Of a DNA stretch of 39,994 bases, positions 8,221 through 31,309 are shown piece after piece. The translations under genes and the position numbers were made by a program. The DNA comes from a virus. Under the pieces are notes generated by a model. It did not search any database. It had not been told where the DNA came from and saw nothing but the letters and a program-made list of their open reading frames with translations. Numbering within the stretch: the first letter of the stretch is position 1; each line of letters starts with the position of its first letter. The stretch is from positions 1 to 39,994 of the IMG/VR virus record IMGVR_UViG_3300033998_000146, one strand, 5' to 3'.

Positions 8221-8309
8221 TGGCGGAGGGCGAGGGATTCGAACCCCCGGAAGGTTGCCCTTCAACTGATTTCAAGTCAGCCGCCTTCGACCGCTCGGCG
8301 CAAACCCGC
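8221..8309 (-). tRNA. tRNA-Ser(TGA)-like sequence, probably the attB-identity core
   Basis: Read leftward, this 89-nt sequence has a D-arm (GCC-GAGCGGTCGAA-GGC), an anticodon arm GCTGA-CTTGAAA-TCAGT giving anticodon TGA, a long variable arm (GAAGG-GCAA-CCTTC), a T-arm with TTCGAAT, and an encoded CCA at 8221-8223. All this is class II tRNA-Ser. The acceptor stem is poor: 5' GCGGGTT against 3' GCCCTCC leaves two mismatches and two wobbles. A break at the 5' end with everything downstream intact is expected of a phage att site that restores the 3' part of a host tRNA gene after integration. It may not be a working tRNA in the free phage. Confidence 0.7.
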
Positions 8310-8341
8310 ATGGTGACTGCACATTAAATTTTTGACCCGCT

Positions 8342-8422: not shown

Positions 8423-9331
8423 ATGGCGTATGAGGTGGAGTGGCTTATCAAGGATTTTGTGAGGTTCAAGCAGTCTCAAGGTCGGGACAGCAACACCCTA
8501 CATCAGTACCGTAGGGAGATCGAGTTGTTCTTCAAGAGGCATGACGTAGACATGGAAAATTATCATCGTCTTCGCCATGAATTATACGACTATCTCTCAA
8601 TGTATCAAAACCCATATACCTACAATATAAAGCTGACATATCTGAAGGCGTTCTTTGCGTGGTGTGTGGAGGAGGGGGTTATCGACGATAATCCCTTGAA
8701 GCATTTGAGCAAGAGGAAGACTCCAACGAAGGTGAATCATGGGGTCACCATCGAGGTGGTGCGCAAGATATTGGACTTGTGCGACCTTACGACTTTTGCG
8801 GGGTTGCGTGACTATGCTCTGATTCTGTTCTCAATGGACACAGGGGCACGGCCCAACGAGGCGCTGAATGTTATGCCTGAAGACTGCAACTTCAAGCAGT
8901 CCGACGTGGTGATCCGTGCGGAAACGTCCAAGGTGAGGCAGGAGAGGGTATTGCCCATTACCTATGCAACCGCCAAGGCTATGAGGGATCTAATAGCCAT
9001 GCATCACCCCTCCTGGGGCAAATTGCCCGTCTTTTGTTCCAGCACGGGTAAACCGTTCACTCCATACAACTGGTGCAAAAGACTGCGTATGTATTCCAAT
9101 ATGGTGGGGGTACGTGTGCGCCCCTATGATCTACGGCATTTGTTCGCCATTACCTATCTGCGCAATGGCGCGTCACCGTTCCACGTTCAGAAAATGCTAG
9201 GACATGAGGGGCTGGAAATGACAAGGCGCTATATAGCGCTGTCCCAGGCGGACATAAAAGAGGGGCACGTGAAATCATCTCCGGTGGAGGTTTGCCTGAA
9301 ACCTACAGTAAAAAGGGTTAGGGGGTTGTAG
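8423..9331 (+). CDS. int: tyrosine recombinase / integrase
   Basis: This 302-residue protein has an N-terminal SAM-like core-binding domain (about residues 5-95). The catalytic domain carries Arg in DTGARPNEAL, Lys in TSKVRQERVLPI, the box YDLRHLFAITYL, His in MLGHEGLEMT and the nucleophile Tyr in RRYIALS. In the HxxR box the first His is replaced by Tyr, a variant also seen in other integrases. It should integrate and excise the phage at the adjacent tRNA-Ser-like att site. The start ATG follows TTGGAGGTGGGGG. Its stop codon lies in the loop of a bidirectional terminator. Confidence 0.93.
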   Translation: MAYEVEWLIKDFVRFKQSQGRDSNTLHQYRREIELFFKRHDVDMENYHRLRHELYDYLSMYQNPYTYNIKLTYLKAFFAWCVEEGVIDDNPLKHLSKRKTPTKVNHGVTIEVVRKILDLCDLTTFAGLRDYALILFSMDTGARPNEALNVMPEDCNFKQSDVVIRAETSKVRQERVLPITYATAKAMRDLIAMHHPSWGKLPVFCSSTGKPFTPYNWCKRLRMYSNMVGVRVRPYDLRHLFAITYLRNGASPFHVQKMLGHEGLEMTRRYIALSQADIKEGHVKSSPVEVCLKPTVKRVRGL

Positions 9332-11950: not shown

Positions 11951-12313
11951 CTAGAAAGGGACGTCTCCCTCCGGTATCTCTACTGGGTGGGTCAACTCCT
12001 GCCCCTTCTGCCTGGCATACTCCGAGGCGTTGAATACGTTCGGGCCAAATATGGCAAAGCTCTTCTGCCCGTTGTACTCATCGACAGATAGTGTGCCTCC
12101 ATAGAGCAGGACAAGGTCACCTTTCTGTACGTTGATCCATTCCACCTGCTTTCCGAAGACCACTACGCTGAAGAACGCCGTCTTCTTTTCCTTGCTCTTG
12201 TCGTTGATAGCTATACTGAAGGTCGCCATCGGCGTTCCTGATGTAGTTAAACTCGTTCTCATATCTCTCGTGGCGTGTCCCATGAAGGACACTTCGCCCA
12301 TTATGTTTGGCAT
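11951..12313 (-). CDS. ssb: single-stranded DNA-binding protein
   Basis: This 120-residue protein is one SSB OB-fold: MGEVSFMGHATRDMRTS, FSIAIND, TAFFSVVVFGKQVEWI, KGDLVLLYGGTL. It ends in an acidic tip, EGDVPF, the motif that recruits replication and repair partners. It coats single strands made during phage replication and ERF-mediated annealing. ATG 12313 follows AAGGAGGAATGCATT. It sits between a small membrane protein and a nuclease-fold protein in the early operon. Confidence 0.92.
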   Translation of the reverse strand: MPNIMGEVSFMGHATRDMRTSLTTSGTPMATFSIAINDKSKEKKTAFFSVVVFGKQVEWINVQKGDLVLLYGGTLSVDEYNGQKSFAIFGPNVFNASEYARQKGQELTHPVEIPEGDVPF

Positions 12314-13570: not shown

Positions 13571-14218
13571 TCACCTCCAGGCATTTGTAATTTTTTCTAC
13601 GTACCGAGCGCCACCGGAGTATCGCTGTAGCGCCGCCTCCAGATCGCCATTCTCGGCTCTCATTAGCTGGTGGAGCACGAAACACCCGGCAAATACTCCG
13701 CCTCGCGGCGTGTAAAGATCCTGCGGAAACCTCTTGATGATCCCGCTTTTCTTGAGCATGTCCGCGTGTACGTCCGATACCTGCATGACTCCATAAACGT
13801 AATGTTTTTTATCTGTCGTATATGAGTTTTTCGCGAATATATTCCCGTGGCTCTCGTGCCGTATGATCTCGACAACAACCCACGGTTCCAACCCAAAGCG
13901 CTCGCAGGCATCCAGGACGGCCTCCGTGAGGTTGACGGCCATCCAAGTGCTCATTTTTGGGTTCATGGTCTGAAACATTTCGACCATGCGGACTACGTCC
14001 TGTTCCTTAAACTCCTTCAGGGGCTTGAACGCTATGGGGCTAGGCGCCTCCTCGATGTGCTTGTAGCGTTCGTATCCCTCCCAAACCTTCATCGCCTCGG
14101 TGGCGATCACCTTACAACCAACCGCGAACGTCACACCGAAACCTGCTAGCAGGGCAATGATAGATAATATGGCTATTGCCTTGCTCGCCTTATCAAATCT
14201 ATTTCCCAGTGCTTCCAA
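13571..14218 (-). CDS. membrane-anchored lytic transglycosylase (SLT fold)
   Basis: About 215 residues from TTG 14218, chosen because GGAGGTGGAGG lies just upstream; the start is uncertain, and the open frame extends to 14287. One membrane span (about 14-36, IAILSIIALLAGFGVTFAVG) precedes a lysozyme-like domain. That domain has catalytic Glu122 in IIRHESHGN, YGVMQVSDVHA (142-152), TPRGGVFAGCFVLHQLM (170-186) and LQRYSGGARYVEKI. It would cleave glycan strands from the outer face of the inner membrane. It is unusual that it sits in the early operon, far from the holin and endolysin. Confidence 0.8.
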   Translation of the reverse strand: MEALGNRFDKASKAIAILSIIALLAGFGVTFAVGCKVIATEAMKVWEGYERYKHIEEAPSPIAFKPLKEFKEQDVVRMVEMFQTMNPKMSTWMAVNLTEAVLDACERFGLEPWVVVEIIRHESHGNIFAKNSYTTDKKHYVYGVMQVSDVHADMLKKSGIIKRFPQDLYTPRGGVFAGCFVLHQLMRAENGDLEAALQRYSGGARYVEKITNAWR

Positions 14219-14654
14219 AACCTCCACCTCCCCGTTTCGTCTTGTAATATTTCTCAAACGTCGCCTCCGACAAAGGATAAATAGCAAAGTACTCTACAGG
14301 CGTTAAAACCAACTGTGCTATCCTGTCTCCTTTTTCGATCGTGTACGGCTTCTCGGATAAGTTGATAAGGATAACGCCTATATCTCCTCGATATTCAGAA
14401 TCGATGATCCCAGGAGCGTTCAGAACAGTAACGCCGTGTTTGAGCGCCAATCCGCTCCGGGGGCATACCAACCCAACGAACCCTTCGGGTATCACCGCCT
14501 TGACTCCGGACCGAACGAGCTTCCATTGCTTTGGCGGTAGCATGACACTTTCCGCTGCCTTCAAGTCCAATCCAGCGTCCCATTTATGCTGTCTCTCAGG
14601 TATCAATGCATTCTCTTCTGCTAGTACTTTCAGTTGTGCTCTTTTTGTCTCCAT
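14199..14654 (-). CDS. dut: dUTP diphosphatase (trimeric dUTPase)
   Basis: All five dUTPase motifs are present in 151 residues: AGLDLKA (27-33), PRSGLALKHG (65-74), GIIDSEYRG (82-90), KGDRIAQLVL (108-117) and GGGGFGSTG (142-150). The enzyme hydrolyses dUTP to dUMP and pyrophosphate, which keeps uracil out of phage DNA and feeds dTMP synthesis. The 3' end overlaps the transglycosylase gene start by about 20 bases. The length is normal for the family. Confidence 0.96.
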   Translation of the reverse strand: METKRAQLKVLAEENALIPERQHKWDAGLDLKAAESVMLPPKQWKLVRSGVKAVIPEGFVGLVCPRSGLALKHGVTVLNAPGIIDSEYRGDIGVILINLSEKPYTIEKGDRIAQLVLTPVEYFAIYPLSEATFEKYYKTKRGGGGFGSTGK

Positions 14655-19742: not shown

Positions 19743-20402
19743 ATGCAAGGGGGTCGGTCAGATCTAAGTATTAGCGAAAAGATAGTCAGAGCGAGAGAGT
19801 CTGCCGGTTTGTCTCAAAAACAGCTGGCAGAGATCATTGGCGTGTCACCGTCTTATTTGAGCCGTATAGAGAGAGGGGAGCGCACGCCAGACAGCTTGTC
19901 CTTGTTGATGGGCATAGCTAAGGCCACGGGGCAAAGTATCACGTACTTTTTACCCCGCATAGAAGGCGGGCCGGACGTCCGCTTGAGATACATTCAGCCA
20001 GGCACATTGGCAAAATTAAGGAACGGAGGTACATCTATGGAAAATGTTTTAAGCGTCCCGCGTTCTTTGGTCTCCGTGATCCTCGACGTCCCCGAAGACG
20101 AAGCCGATAACGTATTCTTATACCGGCTAGAGTCTAGTGTAGAGGGTACCGGTATCCCCCAGGGGTCATGGTGCTTGGTCCAGGAGCGCCAGGGGCGCGG
20201 TGACGTGAAATACGGCGACATTGTTCTCGTTCTTTATCATGGGGCAGAGCTTGTAAGGTACTATTACCCCGATGGCGACAAGATAGTATTGTCCACCGGT
20301 CCGCTGGGGACTGGGTCCACTATGCACTTACTACCGGACGAAACCTTGCATATCGTAGGTGTCATCCGGCGCTACATAGGAGCACCGAAACCCGGCGTGT
20401 AG
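19743..20402 (+). CDS. CI-like repressor (XRE HTH plus S24-like domain)
   Basis: The 219-residue protein has an XRE helix-turn-helix (residues 12-66: LSQKQLAEIIGVSPSYLSRI, ERGERTPDS). The C-terminal domain is S24/LexA-like (about 115-212: IPQGSWCLV, VKYGDIVLVLYHGAELVRYY). At the place of the usual Ser-Met there is SSVEG, and the usual catalytic Lys appears as Arg in ELVRYY. No Ala-Gly or Cys-Gly cleavage site stands out in the linker. It may therefore not self-cleave after DNA damage. It should bind the 22-bp operators upstream and hold the lysogenic state. The start follows GGAGGTAGAAC. Confidence 0.88.
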   Translation: MQGGRSDLSISEKIVRARESAGLSQKQLAEIIGVSPSYLSRIERGERTPDSLSLLMGIAKATGQSITYFLPRIEGGPDVRLRYIQPGTLAKLRNGGTSMENVLSVPRSLVSVILDVPEDEADNVFLYRLESSVEGTGIPQGSWCLVQERQGRGDVKYGDIVLVLYHGAELVRYYYPDGDKIVLSTGPLGTGSTMHLLPDETLHIVGVIRRYIGAPKPGV

Positions 20403-20460: not shown

Positions 20461-20763
20461 CTACCAAAATGTTGGAGGCTCCTCAACCTCCACATAGACA
20501 AAATAAAACGGCCGCCGGACTTTGACTCTTATCTCTCCCTCGGCCGTGACTATGTCTCCTACTTTAACATTGCTCCAATCGAACGCTGAGTCTCGATAAG
20601 CCCGGATAGGGATCTTATCGACGCCCCCGTCCTTTCTGGTGACGGCTATCGTCACCTTGGTAACATCCATTGGGTCTTCCTCCGCGTTACTGGGCACTTC
20701 GTATGATGTCACCTTGACCACTTTTCCTGTTAAACGCACTTTATTTTCCTCTACAGGTATCAT
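20461..20763 (-). CDS. OB-fold nucleic-acid-binding protein (SSB-like)
   Basis: The 100-residue protein reads as one small beta-barrel: VRLTGKVVKVTSYEVP, VTKVTIAVTRKDGG, IPIRAYRDSAF, VKVGDIVTAEGEIRVKVR and FYFVYVEVEE. The strand order and the VGDIVTAEGEIR element resemble SSB/PriB-type OB folds. It lacks the acidic tip of the other SSB in this genome. It starts after AAAGGAGGAAGAAC. It is the last gene of the second leftward block and faces the repressor terminator. Confidence 0.6.
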   Translation of the reverse strand: MIPVEENKVRLTGKVVKVTSYEVPSNAEEDPMDVTKVTIAVTRKDGGVDKIPIRAYRDSAFDWSNVKVGDIVTAEGEIRVKVRRPFYFVYVEVEEPPTFW

Positions 20764-20858: not shown

Positions 20859-20880
20859 GCCCGCTAAGAGCGGGCTTTTT
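20859..20880 (+). terminator. rightward intrinsic terminator inside the amidotransferase 3' end
   Basis: GCCCGCT (20859-20865), AAG, AGCGGGC (20869-20875), then TTTTT. It works only in the rightward direction, against the genes it lies in, so it is a second block to read-through from the repressor. The amidotransferase stop codon is inside the hairpin. Confidence 0.8.
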
Positions 20881-21724
20881 CTTTTCCTTTTTTGTTCTTA
20901 CGGCTGATACAGTAGAGATCCTTGGCGGCAGCATATCCATCTTCATAGCCGTCGTCATATCCATCCATGTAGCCGTCGTTATAGTTGAGTTCTCTGAACC
21001 CGTGTTGGGCATGGACTTTGCCTATATCCACCTGTTCTAATTTCCACCGTAACTCTTCCTCCGGATCCTCCGGCATATCATCACATAGTTGGGAAAAGGC
21101 ATATTGGGGTCGCCATTTCCAAGGGTGATATATCTTGCTCACCGGGTGCCACTTTTCCAGATCTCCGAACGTGTACCCGATCCCTAGCTGTTGGTCGGGG
21201 ATCCATGCCGGGAACGATGACGCAAATATCCCGTCCCAGTAACATAAATCACCGCCTGCATTGACCACAAACGGTGTGCCTTTGTACGTGCCCACGAACA
21301 CACTATCTGTGTGTGCCGTTAACCATCTCAGTTTGTCCTCTAGGTCAGCGTCCGGGGCCCGGTCTAGAATTTCACAAATTACTTCTGTGTCGGTCTTGTT
21401 GTATAGCTCGGCTATCGGTCTAACCCAGCTCTCTGTCCCATTCATGGCGATCACCCAGTCGCCATGAACGAATGGGTGGCAGTTATCATCGTTGATACTG
21501 CCTATTGATGCTATGCGGGTATGGAACACTAAGATGTCATACTTTTCATTTTTTGCCTTTTCAGCCAGCTCGTGACACGTCACGGCCGTGCCTTTTTCGA
21601 TAGAGATCTTGCCCTTTTTGATAAGAGCAAGACCATTCCCATGTCCTCCAAATTCCTTCTCAAGATGTATAAACAAAGTTTCCGCCAAATCCAGTTTCTT
21701 CCTGGTCAATAGTACTCTACACAT
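20864..21724 (-). CDS. class II glutamine amidotransferase (Ntn-type), phage-encoded
   Basis: The 286-residue protein starts MCRVLLT, so Cys2 becomes the N-terminal nucleophile after Met removal. Other class II landmarks are HTRIASIGSINDDNCHPF (about 92-109, glutamine-binding Arg and Asn), AMNGTESW (about 117-124) and the TDTEVICEIL helix (about 135-144). The domain releases ammonia from glutamine. No synthetase domain is fused, so a partner must use the ammonia; the amidoligase two genes upstream is the obvious candidate. The C-terminus has four DGYx repeats (about 251-266) and a basic end. Confidence 0.85.
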   Translation of the reverse strand: MCRVLLTRKKLDLAETLFIHLEKEFGGHGNGLALIKKGKISIEKGTAVTCHELAEKAKNEKYDILVFHTRIASIGSINDDNCHPFVHGDWVIAMNGTESWVRPIAELYNKTDTEVICEILDRAPDADLEDKLRWLTAHTDSVFVGTYKGTPFVVNAGGDLCYWDGIFASSFPAWIPDQQLGIGYTFGDLEKWHPVSKIYHPWKWRPQYAFSQLCDDMPEDPEEELRWKLEQVDIGKVHAQHGFRELNYNDGYMDGYDDGYEDGYAAAKDLYCISRKNKKGKEKARS

Positions 21725-21754
21725 ATTTATCTTCCTCCTTGTATGATTGAACCT

Positions 21755-21785
21755 CTCCCGCTTACGCTTCGCTAAGAAGTGGGAG
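21755..21785 (-). other. hairpin resembling an IS200/IS605 right end
   Basis: The 137 bases between the coiled-coil gene and the amidotransferase hold no ORF. Read leftward they contain GAATCTCCCACTTCTTAGCG running into AAGCGGGAGAGGTTCAA. The stem pairs CTCCC with GGGAG and most of ACTT with AAGC. This hairpin and flank look like the right ends of IS200/IS605 elements, which also form TnpB guide-RNA scaffolds. There is no tnpA or tnpB. It may be a relic, or simply an mRNA hairpin between two genes. Confidence 0.35.
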
Positions 21786-21862
21786 ATTCATGAGAAGTTT
21801 GGTAGCTTACACTCCCCTTATTCTCAATGGACTGTCCAATCGCCCATTATCCCTTGCAATCT

Positions 21863-22009
21863 CTATTGCTTTGGGAATACCTTATCTTTTTTACTAACTA
21901 GCTCTTTTCTAAGAGCTTCTACTTCGCTCGCAAGCTTCTGTATTTCATCCATGACTCTTTCTAGCTGGTATTCAACTGCACATAACTGTGTCGGTATTTT
22001 TTTAGCCAT
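21863..22009 (-). CDS. small coiled-coil protein (48 aa)
   Basis: This short gene starts at ATG 22009 after GGGAGGTGGCGAGTG, 25 bases downstream of the amidoligase stop. Heptad spacing of hydrophobic residues runs through VEYQLERVMDEIQKLASEVE and on to LRKELVSKK, predicting one long coiled coil. It lies between the amidoligase and the amidotransferase, so it could bridge the two enzymes or regulate them. That is inference from position only. Confidence 0.7.
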   Translation of the reverse strand: MAKKIPTQLCAVEYQLERVMDEIQKLASEVEALRKELVSKKDKVFPKQ

Positions 22010-22034
22010 CACTCGCCACCTCCCAAAGATTATG

Positions 22035-22829
22035 TTAGCAATTCATCTCTATCCATTTAAGACGGCTGGCGAACCACTCTCGTTCCTCAGCAACCACGTG
22101 TTTCGTGATTGCCTGCCAAAATGCCTTCGTGTTCCAACTCAGTTTCGCCAGTGTAGACTCACTGGCTCTCTGCACCAGACGCACTAAGGCGTCGGTGAAG
22201 ATCAAATATCCTTTTATCGTTTCTATATCTAGAGTCCCGGCAAAAAGTCGGAACTCTAAAGTCTTTTCCCATACCGCTATGCAGCGGTACTTTGAGTTAA
22301 ACCACCGTCTTATAACGGCGTTGTCATCGTATTTGGCCGCCCACTCGTTAATGTTCTCCTCGGTACGCCCCGAGAAAGCAATGAGCGACCGCCAGATGTT
22401 TGGGGATTGAATAAGTCTCACCATTCTGTAGACGTGGTCGTCATTTACGCTGCGTGATACATGAATATGTAGTCCCGCTGTTGGCGGATCCCACGCATAT
22501 CCAAAATCAATCAACTCGTCCGCAGCAATTTTCATCTTGTCAATCTCCTCCATGAATCGAGATAGCGTCATCGGATGGGATACAAACTCTATCCCGTTCT
22601 CGGTTAAACTCCCATCATATTTTGCGATCCATCCCTCAAGCGTTTTGAGAATGGTTCTCGCGACCTCTTCTTGTTCTATTTCTTGTCCTTCGTTATCGCA
22701 CAATACCTCGTCGCAGTATGTATCTACCTCCCATTCTATGCCGTAATATCTCTTCCTGCCTCCAGGCTTTTCGTGATAAGCCCGGAGGAACTTCCATTTT
22801 GGTTTGTAATCATGCCTCTTTATCACCAT
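22035..22829 (-). CDS. amidoligase-like enzyme (COOH-NH2 ligase, glutamine synthetase-like fold)
   Basis: The 264-residue protein has the amidoligase signature: YYGIEWEVD (28-36, metal-binding Glu32 and Glu34), KYDGSL (70-75), GIEFVSHP (79-86), AGLHIHVSR (118-126, the HxH strand) and LEFRLFAGT (191-199). These match the putative amidoligase family related to gamma-glutamylcysteine and glutamine synthetases, which join a carboxylate and an amine with ATP. The substrate is unknown. ATG 22829 follows GAGGAGGTGAAGGTG. A class II amidotransferase two genes downstream could supply ammonia. The cassette is cut off from the next upstream gene by two terminators. Confidence 0.8.
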   Translation of the reverse strand: MVIKRHDYKPKWKFLRAYHEKPGGRKRYYGIEWEVDTYCDEVLCDNEGQEIEQEEVARTILKTLEGWIAKYDGSLTENGIEFVSHPMTLSRFMEEIDKMKIAADELIDFGYAWDPPTAGLHIHVSRSVNDDHVYRMVRLIQSPNIWRSLIAFSGRTEENINEWAAKYDDNAVIRRWFNSKYRCIAVWEKTLEFRLFAGTLDIETIKGYLIFTDALVRLVQRASESTLAKLSWNTKAFWQAITKHVVAEEREWFASRLKWIEMNC

Positions 22830-22888
22830 CACCTTCACCTCCTCTTGTCTATACCGAATCATTGTTTGCTTTTAAACTTTTGATTTGT

Positions 22889-22949: not shown

Positions 22950-22985
22950 AAAAAGGGGAGAGACCGGACTGTGCCGGCCTCTCCC
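22950..22985 (-). terminator. leftward intrinsic terminator after the 224-aa gene
   Basis: Read leftward: GGGAGAG and CCGG pair with CCGG and CTCTCCC around a C-A mismatch (22985-22956), followed by a T-run. It begins 16 bases after the stop of the upstream gene. Confidence 0.88.
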
Positions 22986-30424: not shown

Positions 30425-31309
30425 ATGGGTGCAAACACTTATGTAGCCGTTGGTAACAAGGAGGATATGACCGATCTTGTTCTAAACATATCCCCTTCCG
30501 ACACTCCTATTACCTCTGCCATAGGCAAAGGTAAACCAGCAACTGGGACTGTTCATTCGTGGCTAGAGGATACTCTGCCCACTCCAACCGATAACGCCGC
30601 GGTTGAGGGTGCCGAGTTTACCGTGTCCGATCCCGACCCCCGTGTAGAGCTGATGAACTACACGCAGATCTTTAGGCGCGGCTACAAAGTTACCGGATCC
30701 CAGGAGGCCGCAGACAAGTACGGCGTCAAGTCTGAAATAGCCTACCAGATGTCCAAGGCTATGAAGGCGCTTGCTCTTGACATAGAGAAAGCAATAATCG
30801 AGAACGCCTCCGCCGTACAGGGAGACGCAACGTCCACTCCAAGGAAGATGGGCGGTGTTCCCTACTTCATAACCACAAACGTCCTGGACAACTCCGGTAC
30901 CCCAAGGGATCTCACCGAAGACCTGCTCAACGATGCCATACAGGCCGCGTGGAATGCTGGCGGTAACCCTGATATGGTGGTAGTTTCCGGTAAGACCAAG
31001 AGAGCAATCTCCAATTGGACCACCAACGTAGACAGAACGTTCCCCGTTGACAAGACCAAGCTTACTAGGAAGATAGACGTTTACGAGTCCGACTTCGGCC
31101 TTGTGAAGATCGTCGCCGACAGGTGGATGCCCAACGAGAAGGCGTTCGTGCTGGATACCCAGTACTGGAAACTTAACACCTTCCGTCCGGTTAAAAAGTA
31201 CGTACTGCCCAAGACCGGCGACTCAGAGAAGCAGGTTCTCCTCGGAGAGCTTACCCTTTCCGGCATGGCCGAGAAGGCCAGTGCCATAATCACTGACCTA
31301 CAGCCATAA
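30425..31309 (+). CDS. major capsid protein (SU10/DUF5309-like)
   Basis: The 294-residue protein shows the family pattern from the start: DMTDLVLNISPSDTPITSAI (residues about 15-34), TVHSWLEDTLPTP, NYTQIFRRGYKVTGSQEAAD, AKALALDIEKAIIENA-type helix, MGGVPYFI and VVVSGKTKRAISNW. This is the HK97-fold SU10/DUF5309 capsid group. There is no long prohead delta domain; a separate scaffold gene precedes it. The start follows TTAGGAGG. It should be among the most highly expressed late genes. Confidence 0.92.
   Translation: MGANTYVAVGNKEDMTDLVLNISPSDTPITSAIGKGKPATGTVHSWLEDTLPTPTDNAAVEGAEFTVSDPDPRVELMNYTQIFRRGYKVTGSQEAADKYGVKSEIAYQMSKAMKALALDIEKAIIENASAVQGDATSTPRKMGGVPYFITTNVLDNSGTPRDLTEDLLNDAIQAAWNAGGNPDMVVVSGKTKRAISNWTTNVDRTFPVDKTKLTRKIDVYESDFGLVKIVADRWMPNEKAFVLDTQYWKLNTFRPVKKYVLPKTGDSEKQVLLGELTLSGMAEKASAIITDLQP

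Follow-up and report, generated by a model that had tools for sequence, protein, structure and literature searches.

Does an amidoligase-like gene that stands beside a gene for a class II glutamine amidotransferase (GAT) in a phage form an enzymatic unit with it, what would that unit do and is it new? The locus lies in an IMG/VR virus record of 39,994 bases, which was analysed over its whole length and is referred to here as the window. The window carries terminase, portal and capsid genes together with integrase and repressor genes, so that on gene content it is a temperate tailed phage, in agreement with the phage context given in a first-pass annotation. On the minus strand the genes run in the order amidoligase, 48-codon ORF, GAT (Table 1).

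Table 1. Features of the amidoligase-GAT locus and its surroundings in the window
Feature	Coordinates	Strand	Remarks
Amidoligase_2 (glutamine-synthetase-fold carboxylate-amine ligase, predicted)	22035..22829	-	264 aa; profile match, predicted fold, residues
48-codon ORF, possible short coiled coil	21863..22009	-	Between amidoligase and GAT
Class II glutamine amidotransferase (GAT), predicted Ntn fold, 'AMNGTE' subfamily	20864..21724	-	286 aa
Small OB-fold/SSB-like protein	20461..20763	-	Downstream of GAT, same orientation; SSB match below Pfam cut-off
Repressor	19743..20402	+	HTH_3 above cut-off; Peptidase_S24 match weak
Terminator-like hairpin	22956..22985	-	12-bp stem, T-rich tail; upstream of amidoligase

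The two enzymes and their immediate surroundings

The amidoligase matches the Pfam family Amidoligase_2 (PF12224) with E=2.6e-6 and 27.9 bits (cut-off 22), as well as PHROG 16683 (E=5.5e-18) and PHROG 2443, 'amidoligase enzyme' (E=8.7e-12). Its longest open frame begins at 22862, and the start that is preceded by a ribosome-binding site, gaggaggtgaaggtgATG, is at 22829, in line with the end coordinate of the first-pass annotation. Residues E32, E34, D72, G73, S74, E81, H121, H123, E192 and R194 are invariant in an alignment of 66 amidoligases, and the window protein has the ExE, DGS, HxH and ExR motifs on a GS-like fold in the predicted model. The model, built with 65 relatives, has a pLDDT of 91, and among solved structures it comes closest to YbdK, plant glutamate-cysteine ligase and glutamine synthetases (180-225 residues aligned, Z 13.6-11); the matches to these three differ by little more than 1 Z unit and we have therefore not chosen a subfamily. 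The N-terminal CxxC zinc ribbons carried by most relatives are absent, and the protein lies on a long branch of the tree (2.26 changes per column). The window amidoligase thus looks like an intact member of Amidoligase_2, with predicted ligase activity.

The GAT passes the cut-off of GATase_4 (PF13230) narrowly, with E=1.6e-5 and 24.4 bits against 23. Across 62 GATs, residues C2, H68, R70, H83, N95 and G96 are invariant and Asp112 is less conserved (40 of the 62 relatives in that column). The window protein retains Cys2 and the glutamine-site residues R70, N95-G96 and D112, and has a methionine before Asn-Gly where 59 of the 62 have a histidine. Its model is confident over most of the first 160-170 residues and poor over residues 197-260 or so. 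The closest comparison is to the glutaminase domain of GlmS (1xff; Z 19.5, r.m.s.d. 3.2, 193 residues aligned), followed by EgtC (Z 18.2) and PurF (Z 17.7), and the family profile finds GlmS at 1e-13. The modelled fold is Ntn, of the GlmS/PurF type, and glutaminase activity is predicted. Both first-pass assignments therefore stand, being above the Pfam cut-offs with folds in agreement, and the E-x-E, HxH and EFR motifs, Cys2 and the glutamine-binding residues that it had described as intact are kept in the invariant columns of the 66 and 62 relatives.

The C-terminal tail of the GAT (20864-21000, minus strand), which is poorly modelled, is rich in Tyr and Asp with DGY repeats, GYMDGYDDGYEDGY; a Tyr/Asp-rich tail, YYEDLYQKYYEE, also ends a related GAT from a Clostridia genome (L200:2100-2259). 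A lax search linked this region with viral spike proteins and, at E 0.006, with a glucosyltransferase; both matches were set aside as chance.

The SSB-like gene downstream may be co-transcribed with the cassette; a second SSB-like protein is encoded at 11951-12313 (minus strand) of the same phage. The repressor gene is convergent with the cassette and stands between it and the early operon, which includes genes for a dATP/dGTP diphosphohydrolase (PF18909; 15174-15524) and a dUTPase (14199-14654), both on the minus strand. Such enzymes of the nucleotide pool are also met near pathways for modified DNA; no PurZ-like partner was noticed. The terminator noted in the first-pass annotation corresponds to the terminator-like hairpin upstream of the amidoligase, and no promoter-like site was found immediately upstream of that gene. 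An RNA-family search of the window returned a single tRNA and no other match; this tRNA-Ser (tga; 8221-8310, minus strand) adjoins the tyrosine integrase gene (8423-9331, plus strand) and possibly marks an attachment site within the record. PADLOC, whose library holds described systems only, gave no match, and the identification of the pair as a known anti-phage defence system was dropped.

Pairing of the genes and a divergent amidotransferase subfamily

Neither window protein by itself retrieved a close relative from viral contigs, and a multi-row profile was therefore used. The amidoligase profile alone fetched 80 viral and 80 bacterial loci, the latter nearly all from Clostridia, so that the presence of a GAT was not selected for. 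A GAT is present in 76/80 viral and 77/80 bacterial loci, which overwhelmingly confirms the co-occurrence of the two enzyme genes, whose absence in related genomes the first-pass annotation had named as a refutation. Of the exceptions, two bacterial (of three) and one viral (of four) run to a contig edge. The GAT gene is directly downstream on the same strand in 74 viral and 75 bacterial loci (of 80 each), and the gap is at most 200 bp in 148 of 152 pairs, with a median of -6 bp between open frames. The distance matrices of the two proteins correlate with r=0.89 (at most 0.12 in 300 shuffles), and the correlation persists within the viral (0.87, shuffles up to 0.08) and the bacterial loci (0.80, shuffles up to 0.26); it partly reflects the shared ancestry of the elements. 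The pairing is real. An amidoligase occurs with no GAT anywhere in the record in the C. difficile-type L004 (130 kb) and L059 (66 kb) and in L014 (41 kb), so that the ligase may also draw its ammonia from another source or work with a different amine. At one locus (L107:1533-3842) amidoligase and GAT share a single frame of 770 residues with the MC start of the GAT inside it. We did not count this as a natural fusion, since an internal cysteine could not serve as an N-terminal nucleophile; a lost stop or an assembly error is likelier.

The 48-codon ORF between the two window genes has a plausible ribosome-binding site; its coiled-coil character was judged by eye only, and its third-codon GC is 0.33 compared with 0.54-0.65 in the neighbouring genes. 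A search of 28,803 ORFs from the related loci yielded no homologue of it, a related pair in another viral record (L009) has no such ORF and the longer gaps in other pairs hold unlike small genes or no clear gene. The ORF itself is present as first described, whereas its role as a conserved component of the system was rejected for want of homologues and because in most pairs no gene intervenes; it probably lies outside the module. The 138 bp between this ORF and the GAT (21725-21862, minus strand) contain a hairpin-like sequence, CTCCCACTTCTTAGCGAAGCGTAAGCGGGAG, that resembles an IS200/IS605-type end and has no Rfam match.

The GATs of the window and of L009 (IMG/VR 3300022188_000004) group together as a well-supported clade of two (SH-aLRT 99), whose branch is very long at 3.66 changes per column, whereas their amidoligases are not sisters; this was a quick tree, and the long branches leave exact placement unsure. 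A search of 391 genomes, all of one class, with a profile of these two GATs added a single clear member (E 7e-40), that of the Clostridia genome mentioned above (L200/L210). It lies directly after an amidoligase that passes the Amidoligase_2 cut-off. The window GAT is 44% identical to that of L009 and 42% to that of L200; the corresponding amidoligase identities are 32% and 20%. The three GATs share MCR, HTRxASxG, NCHP, AMNGTE and TDTE, the usual HNG being replaced by MNG. Judged by these motifs, the window GAT belongs to a small divergent subfamily (HNG to MNGTE), newly recognised here and known from three elements, each time right after an amidoligase and each time after one of a different kind. 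That one GAT type is combined with three unlike amidoligases speaks for joint action of GAT and ligase and for exchangeable partners.

Genomic setting and published relatives

The position of the pair relative to replication genes varies: the repressor separates the two in the window, whereas in L009, whose GAT is the nearest to that of the window, the pair lies ~2.5 kb upstream of, and co-directional with, genes homologous to the Cas4-type exonuclease and Erf genes of the window. A search of the L009 record did not turn up the repressor, a result of little weight. Among the surveyed phages, exonuclease, DnaB and RusA clusters within 6 kb downstream share the strand of the pair, and the L200 pair stands between a Rad50-like gene and an SSB gene in surroundings that look like an integrated element. 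The first-pass annotation had placed the cassette outside the main replication operon, as candidate lysogenic-conversion or host-modification cargo. The position is correct for the window, but the general reading is weakened by these loci, and lysogenic conversion, although possible, is not favoured.

DUF960/DUF3846 genes also neighbour the pair on elements that carry relaxases and resolvases, and a resolvase, relaxase or integrase lies within 6 kb of the pair in 59/80 bacterial loci. In gut Clostridia a block of DUF960, amidoligase, GAT and a small serine recombinase recurs, often with a relaxase (L089-L168, e.g. L164 and L118); DUF960 is present in 29 and a recombinase in 48 of the 80 loci. 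This block looks like a mobile cassette of its own. On a Mycobacterium plasmid (L169:769-7523), an amidoligase gene and a GAT-type gene annotated as glucosamine 6-phosphate synthetase lie directly 3' of a 4.7-kb gene with a methyltransferase domain.

The amidoligase-GAT pair in phages and mobile DNA is common and already described. Both genes were annotated in phage tf (PMC3517423) and in UFV-P2/LUZ24-like phages (PMC3890496) and are present in OM43 phages (PMC10580990); in RIO-1-like podoviruses they belong to a 'peptidoglycan modification cassette', which sits amidst transcription, DNA metabolism and replication genes and of which phiEco32, LUZ24, PaP3 and others are listed as carriers (PMC5498523). 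The first-pass description of an undescribed system is accordingly not supported. Prophages of C. clostridioforme are reported to carry amidoligases, with no GAT named (PMC11318856). The papers describing phage amidoligases and GATs (PMC3517423, PMC3890496, PMC5498523, PMC10580990, PMC11318856) contain no tested substrate or family biochemistry.

Like the window, the RIO-1/phiEco32/LUZ24-like cassettes (L006-L008) combine Amidoligase_2 with a class II GAT in a phage, and the window major capsid protein is also nearest podoviruses including PaP3/MR299-2. They differ in gene order, are distant in sequence and also hold a COOH-NH2 ligase, an ATP-grasp protein and a gamma-glutamylcyclotransferase, none of which was found among the window ORFs with profiles built from L006-L008. 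The PaP3/LUZ24-like podoviruses that are near by capsid carry the larger amidoligase cassette, and the window phage has an integrase and a repressor. The capsid gene itself (30425-31309, plus strand) is nearest those of Manatee Spring phages and PaP3/LUZ24-like Pseudomonas podoviruses; a host assignment from this search was abandoned, as it points only to podoviruses of many hosts. The two-gene modules found in OM43 phages (PMC10580990) and in Clostridia and IMG/VR phages (L009-L168) hold the same two families as the window, and in those surveyed (L009-L168) the genes are directly adjacent in the same order and strand; in most of them the GAT has the canonical HNG and the amidoligase bears CxxC zinc ribbons at its N terminus, and the window has neither. 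L009 and L200/L210 share the divergent GAT subfamily and the placing of the GAT right after the amidoligase, and differ from the window in that the coil is absent and the GAT adjoins recombination or replication genes.

Two further known systems offer parallels. EgtA and EgtC of ergothioneine synthesis resemble the window pair as a GCS-type ligase and a class II GAT-fold protein; EgtA is the gamma-glutamyl ligase and EgtC removes glutamate. The scan of window proteins brought no further ergothioneine gene to notice. In the MurT-GatD system of peptidoglycan amidation, MurT is of the Mur-ligase type and GatD belongs to the class I amidotransferases. Their folds are unrelated to those of the window, a class II GAT and a GS-like ligase, but like the proposed pair MurT-GatD joins a ligase and a glutamine amidotransferase that amidate a carboxylate (PMC3267633).

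Proposed reaction and alternatives

We read the pair as an ATP-driven, glutamine-fed amide-forming module of mobile elements, with a probability of about 0.6. The computed basis comprises the folds, the catalytic residues, the near-obligate adjacency, the correlated divergence and the distribution on mobile DNA; from it we infer catalysis, ammonia coupling, substrate class and benefit. The GS-fold amidoligase would turn a carboxylate into an activated acyl-phosphate at the expense of ATP, the class II GAT would hydrolyse glutamine at its N-terminal cysteine to supply ammonia, and the ammonia would react with the activated carboxylate to leave an amide on the substrate. The module travels with phages and other mobile elements, in many cases amid early genes for replication and recombination, and most likely its target, modified during takeover, would be a peptide, protein or wall precursor of the host or of the element itself. 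The amidoligases without a GAT, the Met in place of His before Asn-Gly and the nearly equal fit of EgtC (Z 18.2) speak against this reading.

The main rival, which we consider unlikely, is a make-and-remove pattern as seen for gamma-glutamyl groups with EgtA/EgtC in ergothioneine synthesis. The ligase would join the gamma-carboxyl of glutamate to an amine and the GAT-fold protein would remove or transfer the glutamyl group. The top ligase folds are indeed gamma-glutamyl ligases (YbdK and glutamate-cysteine ligase), but glutamine synthetases match almost as well and no subfamily is picked out; EgtC approaches GlmS as a match to the GAT (Z 18.2 versus 19.5) and the window protein departs from HNG, yet its glutamine-binding residues are those of ordinary glutaminases. 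A gamma-glutamylcyclotransferase is present in the larger phage cassettes, where it and the RIO-1-type GAT are termed degradation genes (PMC5498523), but is missing from the window in the profile search of its ORFs. Narrower and more improbable still is that the MNGTE subfamily (window, L009, L200) has left ammonia donation and instead hydrolyses or transfers the gamma-glutamyl group on whatever its partner amidoligase has made; if true, mobile elements would here have a write/erase system for tagging proteins of the host or their own.

The published hypothesis, that the pair protects against superinfection by altering the side chains of peptidoglycan in infected or lysogenic cells, is a choice of substrate within the amide-forming reading and hence does not exclude it; we regard it as doubtful. 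It was proposed for RIO-1-like podoviruses (PMC5498523) and taken up again in work on OM43 phages (PMC10580990) and on C. clostridioforme prophages (PMC11318856), and these three papers cite Iyer and colleagues for the blocking of superinfection by a change of the cell surface. No test of it was found in the literature on these cassettes, the window lacks their three additional enzymes, and relaxase/resolvase elements with DUF960/DUF3846 neighbours give no hint of the wall. That the window copy is instead a decayed or neutral passenger is very improbable. The long amidoligase branch, the lost zinc ribbon and the missing promoter-like site would fit such a divergent, non-functional copy, but every invariant catalytic residue is retained in both proteins, the amidoligase fold is confident, the frames are full length with good ribosome sites and the same GAT subfamily persists beside an amidoligase in two other elements.

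The amide-forming reading thus concerns a two-gene module that is real and ordinary in kind, with a divergent GAT. Such pairs are widespread in phages and in mobile elements of gut Clostridia, and the strict two-gene structure, with a compact zinc-free amidoligase and a confident model, makes this one a small testable unit. The occurrence of one GAT subfamily beside three unlike amidoligases offers a handle on what these elements amidate; the candidate targets are a wall precursor, a host protein or a metabolite, and the answer bears on superinfection exclusion or host takeover.
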